This document shows positions 11,647 through 55,844 of a stretch of DNA of 64,000 bases, piece by piece. This DNA comes from Anderseniella sp. GTDB taxonomy: Bacteria; Pseudomonadota; Alphaproteobacteria; Rhizobiales; Aestuariivirgaceae. How positions within the stretch are numbered: the stretch's first letter is position 1; the number at the start of each line of letters is the position of its first letter. Location: contig DAOUPT010000013.1 in NCBI GenBank assembly GCA_030626025.1, forward strand, positions 1 to 64,000, written 5' to 3'. The position numbers and the translations under genes are program-made. The notes below the pieces were generated by a model that was not told where the DNA came from, did no database searches, and saw only the letters and a list, made by a program, of their open reading frames with translations.

Positions 11647-11671
11647 TTTTAGTCTCATCTAATGAGTTAGG

Positions 11672-11773
11672 GCGTTTCTGGTTTAGTTTGAATCACAAAC
11701 TCAATCAAAAACGCAACGATGTCGATAACGTAGAGTGGCATTTCGTATTCATTCTGAACCCGAAATGCTCTAG
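11672..11773. repeat. Paired palindromic intergenic repeats of rhizobial type, before dnaN
   Basis: Two imperfect palindromes in tandem. The first (11672-11714) has outer arms GCGTTT / AAACGC and inner GTTTG / CAAAC around a GAATC-centred loop. The second (11731-11773) has arms GCATTTCG / CGAAATGC and ends in CTCTAG. Both resemble the element at 45318-45370 in this window and the AGAGCATTTC-type repeats common between genes in Rhizobiales. They end 16 bases before the dnaN start. Confidence 0.6.
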
Positions 11774-11789
11774 TTGAAAGGTCTTTTGC

Positions 11790-43537: not shown

Positions 43538-44260
43538 ATGAAGCTTGAACACAGTCACGACCATGCTGAAATCGCTACCCGGCTGGCTGAGGAGCAAAAA
43601 CTGTCCTATATTCGCGATTTCGTTTATGGTGGAATCGATGGCGCTATTACCACATTTGCCATTGTGGCAGGCGTAGTAGGGGCCGCGTTGTCTTTGAAGG
43701 TGATCCTCATTCTGGGCCTTGCCAACCTGCTCGCCGATGGGTTTTCAATGGCTGCAGGCAACTATTCCGGCATGAAGACTATTGTTGATGACTTCAAGCG
43801 AATTAGTGAGATTGAAAAGAAACATATCAGGGTCGATCCGCAGGGCGAAACTGAAGAAGTGCGCCAGCTTCTGCAAAAAAAAGGCCTGACCGGTGAAACT
43901 CTTGAAAACGTCGTGAAAACAATTACTGCCGATGAGCAAACCTGGCTCGACTTCATGTTAACTGAAGAATATGGCCTTCCGCTCACCCAGCATTCACCGT
44001 TCCTTGCTGGCCTTGCAACATTTATCGCCTTTATAATCTGCGGCGCGGTGCCTCTGCTGCCCTTCATCTTTGAAATACCGGCAACCTTCACGGTTTCGGT
44101 CATCATGACTGCAGTGGTGTTTTTTGCCATTGGCGCTGCAAAAAGCAAATGGGCATTGGCCCCATGGTGGCGCTCAGGCCTTGAGACACTGGCAATCGGT
44201 GGCATTGCCGCCGCGATGGCATATGCTGTTGGTTATTTTTTGAGCAACATAATTGGCTAG
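43538..44260 (+). CDS. VIT1/CCC1-family iron/manganese transporter
   Basis: 240 residues, inner-membrane, with five hydrophobic helices. It opens with YIRDFVYGGIDGAITTFAIVAGVVGA, the first family helix with its metal-binding acidic residue, then LGLANLLADGFSMAAGNY, and an acidic cytoplasmic domain (KHIRVDPQGETEEVRQLL) of the metal-binding type before the last three helices. Members move Fe2+ or Mn2+ out of the cytoplasm. I see no clear Irr, Fur or RirA site upstream. It converges on bhcD. Confidence 0.85.
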   Translation: MKLEHSHDHAEIATRLAEEQKLSYIRDFVYGGIDGAITTFAIVAGVVGAALSLKVILILGLANLLADGFSMAAGNYSGMKTIVDDFKRISEIEKKHIRVDPQGETEEVRQLLQKKGLTGETLENVVKTITADEQTWLDFMLTEEYGLPLTQHSPFLAGLATFIAFIICGAVPLLPFIFEIPATFTVSVIMTAVVFFAIGAAKSKWALAPWWRSGLETLAIGGIAAAMAYAVGYFLSNIIG

Positions 44261-44284
44261 AGCCCTGATTGGCTGCAGCACAAA

Positions 44285-45250
44285 TTAAAAATCAACCTCA
44301 ATGGCCACGCCCTTTTTGACAGCCAGATCGACAACGGCTGATGCGACGGCCAGATCCTGGAGGCCTACCCCGGTGCCATCAAACAGCGTAACTTCATCTT
44401 GCGATGTTCTGCCCGCTGTCTGGCCATTGATAACTGCACCAAGCTCCCTGATGTCGGCTTCTTTAAGTGATCCATCGCCAATTGCGTGCTGACATTCACC
44501 GATGCTGATTGATTGGGCGATTTCATCGGTGAAAACAGTGGCCCGGGCAACAAGGGCTGCTTCAACCTCTTGTTTGCCTTTGGTGTCTGTGCCCATGCAA
44601 GCGATATGGGTGCCACCTTTAACCTGGGCATCCATCAAAAGTGGACTAAAACTGGAAGTGATTGTGATTATGACATCAGCTTGCTCACCCAACCGGTCAA
44701 GATCTACCGCTTCAAATGGCAAACCCAGTTCCTTTGCAGTATCCTCCAGACGACCGAGCCTTTCGGGGTTGTGGTTCCAACCGATGATTTTTTCAAAATT
44801 GCGATGTTCAACAGCAGCGCGCATTTGAAAGGCAGACTGGTGACCGGCACCGATCATACCAAGAACCTTGGCATTTTCAGGAGCCAGATACTTGATCGAA
44901 ACAGAAGAAGCAGCCGCTGTGCGCAATGCGGTCAAAAGATTACCGCCGACCAGCGCTTTGACTTTGCCGGTATCAGCATCAAACAGGATCACCATTGACT
45001 GGTGATTGGTCAGCCCTTTTGCTTCATTGCCCGGCCAGTAGCCTCCAGATTTTAATCCCAGCGCCAACCCGGTCCGGTCAAAGCCGGATTTAAATCCATA
45101 TAAAGCATCAGCATGACCGATTGCTTCGCGGATGACGGGAAAGTTATAGGCATCCTTGCTGGCCATCGCTGCAAAGACTTTTTCAACCGCGTCAAAACAG
45201 TCTGCACGCCCGATCAGCGCGGCAATTTCTTTTTCTGGAACAATAATCAT
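44285..45250 (-). CDS. bhcD: Iminosuccinate reductase BhcD
   Basis: Last enzyme of the beta-hydroxyaspartate cycle: reduces iminosuccinate with NADH to L-aspartate. 321 residues of the ornithine-cyclodeaminase/mu-crystallin fold, with the nucleotide loop KVLGMIGAGHQSAFQMRAA near residue 130 and GFKSGFDRTGLALGLKSGG before it. Family alone would say ornithine cyclodeaminase, but the bhcABC context decides. The start MIIVPEKEIA is preceded by AGGA; an ATG 50 codons upstream is rejected because it runs through a terminator. It stands 116 bases after bhcC, beyond a strong intrinsic terminator, so it may be expressed less than bhcABC. Confidence 0.9.
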   Translation of the reverse strand: MIIVPEKEIAALIGRADCFDAVEKVFAAMASKDAYNFPVIREAIGHADALYGFKSGFDRTGLALGLKSGGYWPGNEAKGLTNHQSMVILFDADTGKVKALVGGNLLTALRTAAASSVSIKYLAPENAKVLGMIGAGHQSAFQMRAAVEHRNFEKIIGWNHNPERLGRLEDTAKELGLPFEAVDLDRLGEQADVIITITSSFSPLLMDAQVKGGTHIACMGTDTKGKQEVEAALVARATVFTDEIAQSISIGECQHAIGDGSLKEADIRELGAVINGQTAGRTSQDEVTLFDGTGVGLQDLAVASAVVDLAVKKGVAIEVDF

Positions 45251-45272
45251 GTTTACTTCGTCCTGCTTGAGT

Positions 45273-45301
45273 AAAAAATGGGGCAGGTCTAACCTGCCCC
45301 A
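45273..45301 (-). terminator. Intrinsic terminator between bhcC and bhcD
   Basis: Ten-base perfect stem (TGGGGCAGGT paired with ACCTGCCCCA) with a three-base loop at 45279-45301, followed on the minus strand by six U. All three parts of a Rho-independent terminator are present. It stands 66 bases after the bhcC stop and about 23 bases before the bhcD start codon, so some readthrough or another promoter is needed for bhcD. Confidence 0.85.
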
Positions 45302-45317
45302 AGCTTCCGGGAGAAAA

Positions 45318-45370
45318 CTAGAGCATTTCAGGTTGTGTTTGCGATTCAAACAAAACCTGAAACCCTCTAG
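45318..45370. repeat. 53-base palindromic repeat covering the bhcC stop
   Basis: Symmetric about position 45344 with 23 of 26 positions paired in the arms; outer ends CTAGAG / CTCTAG, inner TTTCAGGTT / AACCTGAAA and TGTTTG / CAAACA around a GCGATTC loop. The bhcC stop codon lies inside the right arm. It belongs with the elements at 11672-11773 and is of the AGAGCATTTC type common in Rhizobiales intergenic DNA. Confidence 0.7.
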
Positions 45371-46533
45371 TATGCTTTGCCGCGCGCCGAGACCGGCCAC
45401 AGGGTTTCAACCTTGCCACCGCGAACACCCACATACCAGTCATGGATGTTGCAGGTCGGGTCACAATGGCCCGGCACCAATTTCAGCTTGTCATTTACTT
45501 TCAACACGCTGTCAGGGTCGCCAACAACGCCGTGCTCATCGGAACATTTCAGATATTCAACTTTATCATCACGACCAAAAACGGTGGGCAAACCAGAGTC
45601 CACAGATTGTGCTTTGAGACCGGCATCGACAATCGCCTTGTCTGCTTTTGCATGGCTCATCACAGATGTCAGGAGGAACAGGGAGTTTTCCCATTCACCC
45701 TGATCTATGCGATTGCCATCCTTGTCAAGAATACGGCCATAGTCAGCATCCATAAAGGCGTAAGAACCACACTGAAGTTCATTATATACGCCAGAGTTGC
45801 CTTCAAAATAATAGGACCCGGTGCCGCCGCCGCCAACGATATCACATTCCAAACCTTGCGATTTCAGTGCGTTCACAGCATTTTCTACCATCTCAACAGC
45901 AATATCGATTTTCTCTTTGCGATCAGTGTAAAGATCAAGGTGCTGCATGGCACCCTGATAGGCTTGGATGCCGGCAAATTTCAGACCTTCTGCCGCATCG
46001 ATTAGTTTTGCGATATTCACAACATCTTGCGAAGTGGTCACGCCGCAGCGACCGGCGCCGCAATCAATTTCGACAAGGCACTCAAGCTCGGTGCCGTGCT
46101 TTTGAACAGCCGCAGCCAGATCAGCAACGTTCTCGGGGTCATCCACACACACCAGAATGCGGGCACCCAATTTTGGCATCCGGGCAAGGCGGTCAATTTT
46201 TGCGGGATCGCGAACCTGATTGGAAACCATCACATCCTTGATGCCACCGCGTACAAATACTTCTGCCTCTGACACTTTTTGACAACAAACACCGACTGAA
46301 TCACCCAGGGTTCCTTGCAACTTGGCGACATCGACAGATTTGTGCATTTTACCGTGCGCCCGGTGGCGTACACCCATTTCTTTGGCCAGCGTGCCCATTT
46401 TTTTAACATTGCGCTCCAGCGCATCCAGATCGACAATCAGGCAAGGCGTTTGTATATCGGCCTCGTCCATGCCCGGCAGTGCAGGCACGTCATAACCCAC
46501 TTCAAGGTCGTCAAAATTAACTTTAGCGTTCAT
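45367..46533 (-). CDS. bhcC: erythro-beta-Hydroxyaspartate aldolase BhcC
   Basis: Joins glycine and glyoxylate to (2R,3S)-beta-hydroxyaspartate. 388 residues of the D-threonine-aldolase/alanine-racemase type III fold: QTPCLIVDLDALERNVKKMG, the PLP region VRHRAHGKMHKSVDVAKLQG with the Schiff-base lysine near residue 60, DCGAGRCGVT, and a C-terminal metal site (VPGHCDPTCNIHDWYVGVRG). The start MNAKVNFDDL has a strong GGAG seven bases before; an ATG ten codons upstream is rejected. It lies 14 bases after bhcB. Its final codons are part of a palindromic repeat. Confidence 0.93.
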   Translation of the reverse strand: MNAKVNFDDLEVGYDVPALPGMDEADIQTPCLIVDLDALERNVKKMGTLAKEMGVRHRAHGKMHKSVDVAKLQGTLGDSVGVCCQKVSEAEVFVRGGIKDVMVSNQVRDPAKIDRLARMPKLGARILVCVDDPENVADLAAAVQKHGTELECLVEIDCGAGRCGVTTSQDVVNIAKLIDAAEGLKFAGIQAYQGAMQHLDLYTDRKEKIDIAVEMVENAVNALKSQGLECDIVGGGGTGSYYFEGNSGVYNELQCGSYAFMDADYGRILDKDGNRIDQGEWENSLFLLTSVMSHAKADKAIVDAGLKAQSVDSGLPTVFGRDDKVEYLKCSDEHGVVGDPDSVLKVNDKLKLVPGHCDPTCNIHDWYVGVRGGKVETLWPVSARGKAY

Positions 46534-46547
46534 TGGTAATCTCCTTT

Positions 46548-47510
46548 TTAGCTGTTCAGCCATGGCAGCAAGTCAAGATCGACATTACCACCTGTGATTA
46601 TCACACCCACCCGCTTGCCAGCGAAGGTGTCTTTGTTTTTGAGAATGGTTGCCAACGGCACAGCGCTGCTGGGCTCCATGACGATTTTCATCCGTTTCCA
46701 GGTCAGTTTCATGGCATCGATAATTTCCTGTTCAGAAGCCGTCAGGATGTCGGTCACATGATTTGAAACGAAATGCCATGTCAGGTCTTTAAGCGGCACC
46801 TTCAGGCCGTCAGCCACGGTCTCGGGCGCATCATCAGCAATGATATACCCTGCCTTGAAACTGCGCGCTGCATCATCGGCCTGTTCAGGCTCGGCGGCGT
46901 AAATTTTTGTTTCCGGTGCCAGATTTGACAAGGTCAGACAAGTGCCTGACACCATGCCACCACCACCAATCGGGGCAATCACCGCATCAAGTCCCTCAAC
47001 CTGATCGATCAGTTCACGCGAGCAGGTGCCCTGACCCGCGATTACCCGGTGATCATTATAAGGATGCACAAATTCGGCGCCGGTCTCGGCAACGACTTCT
47101 GCAAAAACCGCTTCACGACTGCTGGTCGAAGGCTCGCACTCCACAATTGTGCCACCATAACCCTTCACCGCATCCTTTTTAGCCTGCGGTGCTGTACGCG
47201 GCATTACCACAGTGCAGGGAATGCCCCTGCGACCGGCCGCATAGGACAGGCTGAGCGCGTGGTTGCCTGAGGAATGAGTTGCAACCCCTTTTTCCAGCAT
47301 ATCATCGCTGAGTGAAAAGACAGCATTAGAGGCCCCACGGGCCTTGAAAACGCCAGCCTTTTGAAAGTTCTCGCACTTGAAGAACAATTCAGCACCAGTC
47401 AGTTCGTTTAAAAAGCTTGAGGTCAAAACCGGGGTTTTGTGGACATGGGGTTTGATGCGCTCATGAGCAGCAAACATATCATCAATTGACGGGATTATCA
47501 TCTCGTTCAT
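46548..47510 (-). CDS. bhcB: erythro-beta-Hydroxyaspartate dehydratase BhcB
   Basis: PLP enzyme that removes water from beta-hydroxyaspartate to give iminosuccinate. About 320 residues of the serine/threonine dehydratase (fold type II) family: PLP lysine near residue 56 in GVFKARGASN, HSSGNHALSLSYAAGRRGIP near 85-105, and the phosphate loop GGGGMVSG near 190. By sequence alone it could be a threonine/serine dehydratase or racemase; position within bhcABCD settles it. The start is uncertain: GTG at 47522 overlaps the bhcA stop, the ATG used here follows GGAG by only two bases, and ATG 47501 (MIIPSIDDM) fits the family best. Confidence 0.92.
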   Translation of the reverse strand: MNEMIIPSIDDMFAAHERIKPHVHKTPVLTSSFLNELTGAELFFKCENFQKAGVFKARGASNAVFSLSDDMLEKGVATHSSGNHALSLSYAAGRRGIPCTVVMPRTAPQAKKDAVKGYGGTIVECEPSTSSREAVFAEVVAETGAEFVHPYNDHRVIAGQGTCSRELIDQVEGLDAVIAPIGGGGMVSGTCLTLSNLAPETKIYAAEPEQADDAARSFKAGYIIADDAPETVADGLKVPLKDLTWHFVSNHVTDILTASEQEIIDAMKLTWKRMKIVMEPSSAVPLATILKNKDTFAGKRVGVIITGGNVDLDLLPWLNS

Positions 47511-47518
47511 ATCTCCAA

Positions 47519-48709
47519 TCACGCGGCAGCTTTTTTGATTTCAGAGAACTCTGAGCGGTAATATTCCTGAGCTGCGGCAACGCCGGAACCAAGGTGAACT
47601 TTCAGGCCCAAATCTACCATGCACATTTCTGCGGTCGCGATGCCCGACAGGGTCATCACATCGGTCAAACTACCCAGATGGCCAATGCGGAAAACCTTGC
47701 CTGCGACTTCACCCATGCCGATGCCGAATGCAACGCCATATTTTTCTGAAGCCAGATTGACAATGTCCAGCGAATTGAACCCTTCAGGCGTTTTGATTGC
47801 ACTTACGGTGTCAGAATACAAATCGGGACTTTGCGCACAAAGCTCCATTCCCCAGGCTGCAACAGCGGCGCGGACACCACATGCAATGCGGGTATGACGG
47901 GCAAAAACATTTTCCAGCCCTTCGCTGAGCAACATTTCAGTTGACCGTTTCAGCCCGTTCAGCAAACCAACAGCCGGGGTGTAAGGGTAAAGGCTGTTTT
48001 TGTAGCTGGCAGCCATGTCCCTGATGTCAAAGAATGTCCGTGGCAGGGTTGCAGTTTCCACAGCTGCCATTGCCTTTTGGCTAAAACCGATGATGGCCAG
48101 ACCAGCAGGCAGCATGAAACCTTTTTGCGATCCGGTAATAGCGATATCAACGCCCCATTCATCCATGCGAAAGTCCATGGAGGCGATAGAGCTGACACCA
48201 TCCACATAGAGCAATGCCGGATGAGAAGCAGCATCCAGGGCGCGACGCACACCGGCAATGTCTGATTTTACACCGGTTGCCGTTTCATTGTGGGTGGCAA
48301 GGACAACCTTGATTTCATGGTTCTTGTCAGCGGTGAGAATTTCCTCGTACTGATCGAGCGGTATGCCAGCGCCCCAGGCAGCTTCGACCACGTCCATTTT
48401 CAACCCATGACGTTCGCACATATCAATCCAGCGATGGCTGAACATGCCGTTGCGGGCAGCTAAAACCCTGTCACCCTTAGACAAGGTATTGGTGAGTGCG
48501 GTTTCCCAGCCACCTGTACCGGTTGAGGGAAAAACGAATATTTCGGCACTTTCTGATTTGAGAATTTTCTTCACACCGGCCAGCGCAGGATGCAGTATCT
48601 CCCCAAACAGTGAAGAGCGGTGATCAAGCGTCGGCATGTCGCAAGCACGCCGCAACTCTTCGGGCATATTTGTTGGCCCGGGAATAAAAACGGGATTTTG
48701 AAAGCTCAT
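47519..48709 (-). CDS. bhcA: Aspartate-glyoxylate aminotransferase BhcA
   Basis: Transfers the amino group of L-aspartate to glyoxylate, giving glycine and oxaloacetate; the oxaloacetate is the product of the cycle. 396 residues of class V aminotransferases (serine-glyoxylate type). N-terminus NPVFIPGPTNMPEELRRACD, FPSTGTGGWETALTNTL for the cofactor phosphate, DGVSSIASMDFRMDEWGVD with the PLP aspartate and ITGSQKGFMLPAG with the Schiff-base lysine near residue 195. First gene of bhcABC(D), divergent from bhcR, with a 184-base AT-rich control region between. Confidence 0.93.
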   Translation of the reverse strand: MSFQNPVFIPGPTNMPEELRRACDMPTLDHRSSLFGEILHPALAGVKKILKSESAEIFVFPSTGTGGWETALTNTLSKGDRVLAARNGMFSHRWIDMCERHGLKMDVVEAAWGAGIPLDQYEEILTADKNHEIKVVLATHNETATGVKSDIAGVRRALDAASHPALLYVDGVSSIASMDFRMDEWGVDIAITGSQKGFMLPAGLAIIGFSQKAMAAVETATLPRTFFDIRDMAASYKNSLYPYTPAVGLLNGLKRSTEMLLSEGLENVFARHTRIACGVRAAVAAWGMELCAQSPDLYSDTVSAIKTPEGFNSLDIVNLASEKYGVAFGIGMGEVAGKVFRIGHLGSLTDVMTLSGIATAEMCMVDLGLKVHLGSGVAAAQEYYRSEFSEIKKAAA

Positions 48710-48855: not shown

Positions 48856-48893
48856 ATAATACTTCAGGACTGTTGAAACAGGATATCAGGTTG

Positions 48894-49694
48894 ATGAACT
48901 CACAAAAACGCTTACGTGGCAGACCAAAAAGTTTTTATGACAAGAGTGCCCAGAACAGAATCCAGACACTTGACCGTGCCCTGGATGTTTTGAATTGTCT
49001 TGCCGACACAAATGGTATGACCCTTACAGAAATTGCGGAAAAACTGGAGCAATCGCCTGCAACGATCTATCGTATTCTGTCAACCTTTGAACATCGGCAA
49101 GCGGCCGAAATGGACCCCGCCAGCCAGGAATGGTTCATCGGCCCGACAAGTTTCCGGCTTGGGTCGGCATTCCTGCGGCGAACCGGTGTGGTTGAACGAG
49201 CCCGCCCGCTGATGCGCGAATTGATGGAAGAAACAGGCGAAACAGCCAATCTTGGAACAGAGGTTTCCGGCGAGGTGATGTTTCTTTCACAGGTAGAAAC
49301 CCATGAAAACATCCGGGCATTCTTTCCACCGGGAGCAAAATCACCCATGCACGCTTCGGGAATCGGTAAAGCATTATTGGCTCATGCAGAACCATCAAAA
49401 ATCGAAAAGTATGTCACACAAAAAAAACTGGAAACTTTTACCGACAATACAATTTCGCAGCAGGATGATCTGCGGGCTGAACTGATAAAGATTAAAGCTC
49501 AGGGTTATGCTTTTGATGATGAGGAAAAAAACATCGGCATGCGTTGCATCGCGGCTCCTATTTTCAATTTCCATGGTGAAGTCACTGCTGGGATTTCAAT
49601 CTCAGGTCCAACAATCCGGTTGTCGCTTGAGCGGGTCAAACTTGTCAGCGAGATGGTCAAGAACAAGGCTAAATCTCTCTCGACGAATTTGTGA
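48894..49694 (+). CDS. bhcR: BhcR, IclR-type regulator of the beta-hydroxyaspartate cycle
   Basis: 266 residues: a basic leader (RLRGRPKSFYDK), the winged helix-turn-helix (LTEIAEKLEQSPATIYRILS near residues 45-64) and the C-terminal IclR effector domain (HASGIGKALLAHAEP, YAFDDEEKNIGMRCIAAPIF). In Paracoccus denitrificans BhcR binds the bhc promoter and its binding is weakened by glyoxylate. Divergent position from bhcA matches. I chose ATG 48894; a TTG seven codons upstream is possible. Confidence 0.92.
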   Translation: MNSQKRLRGRPKSFYDKSAQNRIQTLDRALDVLNCLADTNGMTLTEIAEKLEQSPATIYRILSTFEHRQAAEMDPASQEWFIGPTSFRLGSAFLRRTGVVERARPLMRELMEETGETANLGTEVSGEVMFLSQVETHENIRAFFPPGAKSPMHASGIGKALLAHAEPSKIEKYVTQKKLETFTDNTISQQDDLRAELIKIKAQGYAFDDEEKNIGMRCIAAPIFNFHGEVTAGISISGPTIRLSLERVKLVSEMVKNKAKSLSTNL

Positions 49695-53819: not shown

Positions 53820-55844
53820 ATGGAAAACCGTTCAAACCTTGCCCGCCTGCTGCGCCCACACTCTATAGCAGTTGTGGGTGGAGGTGTGTGGTGCAAATCG
53901 GTTGTCGAGCAATGTCAGAAAATCGGCTTTGAAGGCCCTGTCTGGCCGGTGCATCCCTATAAGAAGACGATTGCCGGATTGCCGGTTTTTTCTCAACCAA
54001 ATGAGTTGCCTGCGGCACCAGATGCGGTGTTCATCGGCGTTAATCGTCATGCGCTGATTGAAACATTGCCTGAACTTAATGCTTTGGGCGCAGGCGGTGC
54101 GGTTTGTTTTGCCAGTGGCTTCATGGAAACCGGAGAAAGCAGTTTGCATCAAAAACTGCTCAAAGCAGCTGGTGATATGGCGTTACTTGGTCCCAATTGT
54201 TATGGCTTTATCAACTACCTTGACCGCTGTGCTCTATGGCCGGACCAGCATGGGGGAGAAGTCGTTGAGCGCGGTGTGGCCATTATCACCCAGTCGTCGA
54301 ATATTGCCCTGAATATCACCATGCAAAGACGCGGCCTGCCGGTAGCATATATGGTCACTGCTGGCAATCAGGCCCAGACCGGTCTTGCTGAAATTGGCGA
54401 GGAGTTGCTGAACGATGATCGCGTAACGGCACTGGGCTGCCATATTGAAGGATTTGGTGATCTGAGGGCTTATGAAGCTTTGGCAAAAAAAGCTTATGGG
54501 CTTGGCAAGCCGGTTATAATTTTGAAAGTCGGTCGATCCAAACAAGCCCGTGCCGCATCCATATCCCACACGGCCTCGCTCGCAGGAGACGATGCAGGGG
54601 CGCAGGCCTTTATCGACCGGCTCGGCTTTGCCCGTGTTGAAAATCTGCCGCAATTTCTGGAAATGCTCAAACTGGTTCATGTTCACGGACGCCTTGGCGG
54701 AACGCGGGTTGCATCGCTGAGCTGTTCTGGAGGTGAAGCCTCTCTGGTTGCAGATGCCGGTCACATTCATGGCATAAGTTTTCCCAAACTTACCGCATCA
54801 AGAAAAAAGCGCTTGGACAATAGTCTTGGCGAACTGGTTTCACTTGCCAACCCGCTTGATTATCATACTGACATTTGGCGCGACCGCACGGTGATGGGCG
54901 AGGTATTTGCAGCAATGAGCGGGCCGGATATTGATTTGACCATTGTGTTGCTTGATTTCCCGCAAACAGACAATTGCCGGGATGAAGACTGGATAATCGC
55001 TATTGAAGCTGTGGAAGACGCAGCTGCTCAGACCGGCCGCCCCTTTGGCGTGGTTGCGTCCCTGCCTGAAAACATGCCTGACATTTACGCAAAGCGGTTG
55101 ACAGAAAATAATATTGTTCCTCTTTGCGCAATTGATGATGCGCTGGCTGCGATGGTCGGCGCATCATGTGTTTTACGCAAACCTGCCGCTGAGCCCGTAC
55201 TGCTTGCAAACTCGTCGACTGACATCGAAGTAATAAGTGAGCACGCAGCCAAAATTGAACTGGCAGAATTTGGCTTGTATATTCCTGTCAGTGCCAGAGC
55301 CGGGACTGTAAGTGAAGTTGCAAAAGCAACTGAACAATTGCCATTTCCGGTGGTTCTCAAAGGCGAAGGGTTTGCGCACAAATCTGAAGCCGGTGCTGTT
55401 GTTCTTGATCTCAAGGACAAACAAGCTGTTTGCAATGCTGCACAAAAAATGAACGCAGACAGTTTTCTTGTTGAAGAACAAATTACCGATGTCGTTGCAG
55501 AATTGCTGATTGGTGTTACCCATGACCCTGCTCACGGGTTTTTATTGACTCTGGCTGCTGGCGGTGTTCTCACCGAACTTTTGCAGGACAGCCAGACATT
55601 ACTTGTTCCAGCCACTAAAGATGAAATAGGTGTCGCGTTAGATAGCTTAAAATGCGCCGTGCTGCTGAAAGGGTATCGCGGCAAACCGGCGGCTAATCAT
55701 TCGGAAATTGTTGATGCTGTTCTTGCGGTGCAAAATTATGTAATTTCAAACGCAGGGAAAATTTCTGAAGTTGAGATTAACCCGCTAATGTGTACGCCGA
55801 AAAATGCAATTGCCGCAGATGCTCTTATATCCAGGGAAAAATAG
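53820..55844 (+). CDS. ADP-forming acyl-CoA synthetase (acetate-CoA ligase family)
   Basis: 674 residues with the fused layout of ADP-forming acyl-CoA synthetases: CoA-binding domain (RPHSIAVVGGGVWCKS), ligase domain with phospho-His250 in AASISHTASLAGDD, and a C-terminal ATP-grasp (VVLKGEGFAHKSEAGAVVLD, EVEINPLMCTP). The reaction is reversible: acid + CoA + ATP to acyl-CoA + ADP + phosphate. Here it could charge gamma-butyrobetaine or carnitine, or recover ATP from betainyl-CoA. AMP-forming ligases are the usual choice for this pathway, so the family is notable. It starts three bases after the dehydrogenase. Confidence 0.85.
   Translation: MENRSNLARLLRPHSIAVVGGGVWCKSVVEQCQKIGFEGPVWPVHPYKKTIAGLPVFSQPNELPAAPDAVFIGVNRHALIETLPELNALGAGGAVCFASGFMETGESSLHQKLLKAAGDMALLGPNCYGFINYLDRCALWPDQHGGEVVERGVAIITQSSNIALNITMQRRGLPVAYMVTAGNQAQTGLAEIGEELLNDDRVTALGCHIEGFGDLRAYEALAKKAYGLGKPVIILKVGRSKQARAASISHTASLAGDDAGAQAFIDRLGFARVENLPQFLEMLKLVHVHGRLGGTRVASLSCSGGEASLVADAGHIHGISFPKLTASRKKRLDNSLGELVSLANPLDYHTDIWRDRTVMGEVFAAMSGPDIDLTIVLLDFPQTDNCRDEDWIIAIEAVEDAAAQTGRPFGVVASLPENMPDIYAKRLTENNIVPLCAIDDALAAMVGASCVLRKPAAEPVLLANSSTDIEVISEHAAKIELAEFGLYIPVSARAGTVSEVAKATEQLPFPVVLKGEGFAHKSEAGAVVLDLKDKQAVCNAAQKMNADSFLVEEQITDVVAELLIGVTHDPAHGFLLTLAAGGVLTELLQDSQTLLVPATKDEIGVALDSLKCAVLLKGYRGKPAANHSEIVDAVLAVQNYVISNAGKISEVEINPLMCTPKNAIAADALISREK

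Follow-up and report, generated by a model that had tools for sequence, protein, structure and literature searches.

The 64-kb window, meaning the whole stretch of DNA that was analysed, carries a genuine bhc operon. The regulator gene bhcR is divergent from bhcABCD, and all five encoded proteins (5/5) score above their NCBIfam equivalog cut-offs (Table 1). The β-hydroxyaspartate cycle is a carbon-conserving glycolate route of marine bacteria that is currently being built into plants and production strains. Elsewhere in the genome, two BhcD-like genes are present at 31-33% identity (next best 33%), and a second close BhcD homologue was not found in this genome. At its downstream end, bhcD is faced by a converging plus-strand gene (43538-44260). 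The two are separated by 24 nt (44261-44284), in which scanning and folding found no strong terminator.

Table 1 Features of the bhc operon and of the bhcC-bhcD junction (window coordinates)
Feature	Coordinates	Strand	Basis or remark
bhcD, iminosuccinate reductase, last operon gene	44285..45250	-	NF045643.1, 594.9 bits (cut-off 500)
AGGA, likely bhcD Shine-Dalgarno, 10 nt before ATG	45261..45264	-	inferred from sequence
U6 tract directly 3' of hairpin	45273..45278	-	read from sequence
Putative terminator hairpin	45279..45301	-	perfect 10-bp stem, 3-nt loop; stem also in two congeners, one pair compensated
Dispersed palindromic repeat, missed in the original prediction	45318..45370		contains bhcC stop TAG (45367-45369)
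bhcC, 3-hydroxy-D-aspartate aldolase	45367..46563	-	NF045642.2, 744.2 bits (cut-off 690)
bhcB, β-hydroxyaspartate dehydratase, overlaps bhcC	46548..47522	-	NF045641.2
bhcA, aspartate-glyoxylate aminotransferase, overlaps bhcB	47519..48709	-	NF045640.1
bhcR, divergent IclR-type regulator	48873..49694	+	NF045644.1

Between bhcC and bhcD, two co-directional genes of one operon, the minus strand from 45301 to 45273 reads directly as UGGGGCAGGU UAG ACCUGCCCCA UUUUUU (the whole element written out, UGGGGCAGGUUAGACCUGCCCCAUUUUUU). This is the sequence signature of an intrinsic (Rho-independent) terminator, in which a GC-rich stem-loop leads straight into a U-rich tract of the coding strand. Both the structure and the coordinates given in the original prediction proved to be right: a perfect 10-bp stem, then U6, between bhcC and bhcD. 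The bhcD start codon follows 22 nt past the U tract, with the AGGA motif in between. The hairpin folds with an energy of -18.7 kcal/mol alone and -19.3 kcal/mol with its tail, leaving the U6 free, whereas shuffled sequences have a mean of -7.5 kcal/mol and none of 200 equals it. In a scan of 38-50 kb it was the best terminator-like match on the minus strand (10 pairs, 7 GC), and a scan of the entire window under a stricter rule found no other site where a long GC stem and an unbroken U6 come together. A single hairpin of lower energy, at 55136-55166, lies inside an ORF and its T tail is broken. No other candidate for a canonical intrinsic terminator in the window is as strong as the bhcC-bhcD hairpin. 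The sole Rfam match is to suhB/mmgR sRNA (45266-45328, minus strand); it covers the hairpin, stays below threshold (21.6 vs 41 bits) and is probably due to the terminator hairpin alone. A riboswitch or known sRNA was rejected on these grounds.

Just upstream of the hairpin, at the bhcC stop, lies a palindrome that is larger than the hairpin itself; its ends are CTAGAG...CTCTAG. An alignment with two congeners identifies it as a clean insertion of ~50 nt directly after the stop codon that is absent at this site in both. Two more near-full copies are found in this genome, the repeat was also noted at 11650-11775 and at L016 1501-1605, one congener has 47 matches, and among the 13 genomes searched the repeat is restricted to the genus. 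At bhcC, the repeat seems to have inserted at CTAG and to have preserved the stop codon, behaviour that could be expected of a miniature mobile element. The terminator hairpin, in contrast, is present in all three aligned genomes, which makes the palindrome the later arrival at the site and the hairpin the older element. One pair of the hairpin stem is C-G here, A-U in one congener and G-C in the other; the congener with A-U also has a mismatched position in its stem and an interrupted tail.

To see how widely such an element occurs, 204 distinct bhcC-bhcD junctions were gathered from genome collections. The bhcA-bhcB and bhcB-bhcC junctions are mostly fused or overlapping, and only bhcC and bhcD are usually spaced (median gaps of -7, -16 and 78 nt, respectively, over up to 204 junctions). 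Tight bhcC-bhcD junctions (<45 nt) account for 57 of the 204, near relatives of the window operon among them. A hairpin of ≤ -12 kcal/mol is present in 141 of the 147 spacers that measure at least 45 nt, in many cases without a U tail; the element thus recurs, as an internal terminator that sets stoichiometry should. For spacers of 50-100 nt, a hairpin is present in 94-100%, compared with 41-59% of shuffles. Where the spacer measures 45-160 nt, the distance from the end of the hairpin to the bhcD start is usually ~25 nt (~20-30 nt in 63/120). In Ruegeria pomeroyi DSS-3, the bhcC-bhcD hairpin reads GGGGCGGGTGCGCCCGCCCC then GTTTTTTC. Stem changes are compensated among the congeners and also in another group; the covariation counts are biased, since the sequences were picked for forming the stem, and are used as support only. 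The spacers of several roseobacter loci (including L185, L187, L198, L213 and L216) contain a pair of hairpins in succession. In the second, a conserved 10-bp stem carries a loop of 15-22 nt, often rich in pyrimidines and, at some loci, with complementarity to the bhcD ribosome-binding site. Pairing of this loop with the Shine-Dalgarno sequence was considered and rejected as inconsistent by eye.

Mapped onto a BhcD tree, the presence or absence of the hairpin requires at least 29 changes, against a mean of 54 and a minimum of 46 for shuffled labels. By this comparison the junction hairpin is inherited over moderate distances, yet often lost or gained. Given these frequent changes, and the fused bhcC-bhcD junctions in several near relatives of the window operon, the hairpin is not essential for the cycle. 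On several Paracoccus plasmids, bhcC and bhcD are annotated as touching or overlapping, so studies of such species would not bring it to light.

As a background, co-directional spacers of similar length were taken from seven annotated Rhodobacterales plasmid regions. A hairpin at -15 kcal/mol is found in 114/126 bhcC-bhcD spacers and in 15/29 other spacers (Fisher p 7e-6), and a -12 kcal/mol hairpin whose end lies 18-32 nt upstream of the next gene in 73/126 and 8/29 (p 0.004), p-values that are indicative only, because the controls are small, hand-assembled and include non-operon pairs, and the bhc loci are mutually related. Eleven spacers after transporter binding-protein genes (L254-L260) were classed apart, as junctions known for step-down control. 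All 11 carry a -15 kcal/mol hairpin, located 18-32 nt before the next gene in 8/11 and mostly at 20-30 nt from the following start codon, and so resemble the bhcC-bhcD spacers.

The tails of the bhcC-bhcD hairpins are biased in their orientation. T-tailed hairpins (≥5 T in 8 nt) occur in 45/147 spacers on the coding strand and in 15/147 on the reverse strand (p 2e-5); under other criteria, 47 T-tailed spacer hairpins were observed against 4.4 in shuffles. The 120 nt after bhcD, with T-tailed hairpins in 53/202 cases on the coding strand vs 30 on the reverse, are similar to the bhcC-bhcD spacers. At least 4 T in the 8 nt after the hairpin are present in only 34/120 relatives, and most tails are poor. 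The counts indicate that a directional terminator signal exists at bhcC-bhcD junctions and that the hairpins of most relatives are poorly tailed. The hairpin of the window is among the most canonical of the set. As most relatives' hairpins lack a good U tail, termination cannot be their shared function everywhere unless it is weak; what the lineages share may be a weaker form of termination or, as in puf, shielding of the bhcABC 3' end.

For the window operon we favour, with moderate confidence, the view that the hairpin and its U6 act as an internal, partly read-through intrinsic terminator, creating an expression step within the operon that would leave BhcD below BhcABC. Termination, its efficiency and the resulting enzyme ratio are predicted here from features that were read directly, namely the anatomy of the junction, the strand-biased U tail and the recurrence. 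Transcription would start upstream of bhcA. Ribosomes would dissociate at the bhcC stop codon, with ~65 nt still to go to the hairpin, which would therefore be free to form. A fraction of the polymerases would halt at the U tract and yield a bhcABC message with a stable hairpin at its 3' end, while the remaining polymerases would read through and yield a bhcABCD message. The outcome would be more BhcABC than BhcD. Readthrough is suggested by the lack of a second close BhcD copy in the genome. Possibly, the hairpin is a 3'-end stabiliser as well. The original prediction that BhcD is lowered relative to BhcABC gains from the anatomy and from the recurrence across related operons, but not from codon bias, a weak proxy in which hairpin-bearing operons show no lower bias for bhcD than for bhcC (p 0.34).

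The same outcome, BhcABC above BhcD, would arise if the hairpin were mainly a decay barrier with little termination. Cleavage of the bhcABCD message in the AU-rich sequence that links the hairpin to bhcD would leave bhcABC shielded from 3' exonucleases and bhcD decaying faster, much as the stoichiometry of the Rhodobacter puf products is set by the differing stability of mRNA segments (PMC6238624). A strong hairpin without a U tail, the commonest form in relatives, would fit such a role. A pure barrier needs neither a U6 that directly abuts the stem, as in the window, nor T tails that are strand-biased overall, and we regard this explanation as rather unlikely. That the hairpin insulates or tunes bhcD translation, keeping the ribosome-binding site open or closed from a fixed distance to the start, is improbable. 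The distance of ~20-30 nt in about half of the spacers noted above (63/120) speaks for it, as do the pyrimidine-rich loops of some roseobacters, which could pair with the ribosome-binding site. Such complementarity is inconsistent across the group by eye, however, the loop in the window is merely UAG, and the U6 is left unexplained.

Two further possibilities had been raised in the original prediction. If termination were complete, no BhcD would be made from the bhc locus unless bhcD had another transcript source, the other BhcD-like genes being only 31-33% identical. Canonical terminators can indeed be efficient (a clostridial test reached 97%; PMC9045158), so that bhcABC could be ended completely and bhcD expressed from its own promoter. 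The ATG lies just 22 nt past the U tract, and a scan of the gap from hairpin to bhcD found no promoter-like site; the nearest upstream minus-strand match (45836-45808) is weak (9/12) and lies inside bhcC, so its transcripts would meet the terminator too. Reliance of bhcD on another promoter is thus at best weakly supported, and we consider it very improbable. We give even less credence to a regulated attenuator that switches between terminator and antiterminator folds. Apart from the position in the operon, such a switch could draw on the hexamer CAGGTT that the upstream palindrome shares with the stem. Refolding with a blocked 3' arm gave, at best, structures 9.5-14 kcal/mol less stable, leaving no competitor within ~9.5 kcal/mol, and no Rfam regulatory family is matched at cut-off. 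The palindrome itself is a dispersed-repeat insertion that the congeners do not have at this site. The attenuator option was therefore abandoned.

An internal, partly read-through terminator would have counterparts in other operons. In the Ralstonia cbb operon, an internal terminator is located downstream of cbbS; the bhc case would likewise place partial termination inside a central carbon operon, in another pathway and another lineage. Internal intrinsic terminators have been described between the binding-protein and translocator genes of ABC importer operons in Ruminiclostridium, where stem and poly-U length determine termination efficiency, termination was lost once the U tract was removed, and altered stems gave efficiencies between ~4 and 97% (PMC9045158). 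The bhcC-bhcD junction shares with these importers a GC stem-loop and U tract inside an operon, here behind a gene that is presumably highly expressed, and a predicted downstream step-down. It differs in that the products of the bhc operon are soluble enzymes, all belonging to one metabolic cycle, that the setting is alphaproteobacterial and that the effect here is a predicted one. The puf operon of Rhodobacter, whose mechanism is RNase E cleavage with decay by segments (PMC6238624), also has an alphaproteobacterial intercistronic hairpin proposed to set the product ratio within one operon, but the hairpin of the window bears a canonical U6 terminator tail.

As a gene-dosage device, the proposed mechanism belongs to a known class; its location between bhcC and bhcD is unreported in the literature searched. 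A 2024 mBio study of how bhc is regulated (PMC11323563) nowhere uses the word terminator, and a literature search by guessed Ruegeria locus tags gave no matches. We tentatively extend the reading beyond the window: across marine alphaproteobacteria, the junction hairpin may be a recurrent, repeatedly gained and lost step-down element that holds BhcD below BhcABC, and operons in which the spacer has been lost may run the cycle at another enzyme ratio. If natural operons do hold BhcD low by means of the hairpin, the alternation between hairpin-bearing and fused junctions would amount to a natural test of the best enzyme ratio for the cycle.
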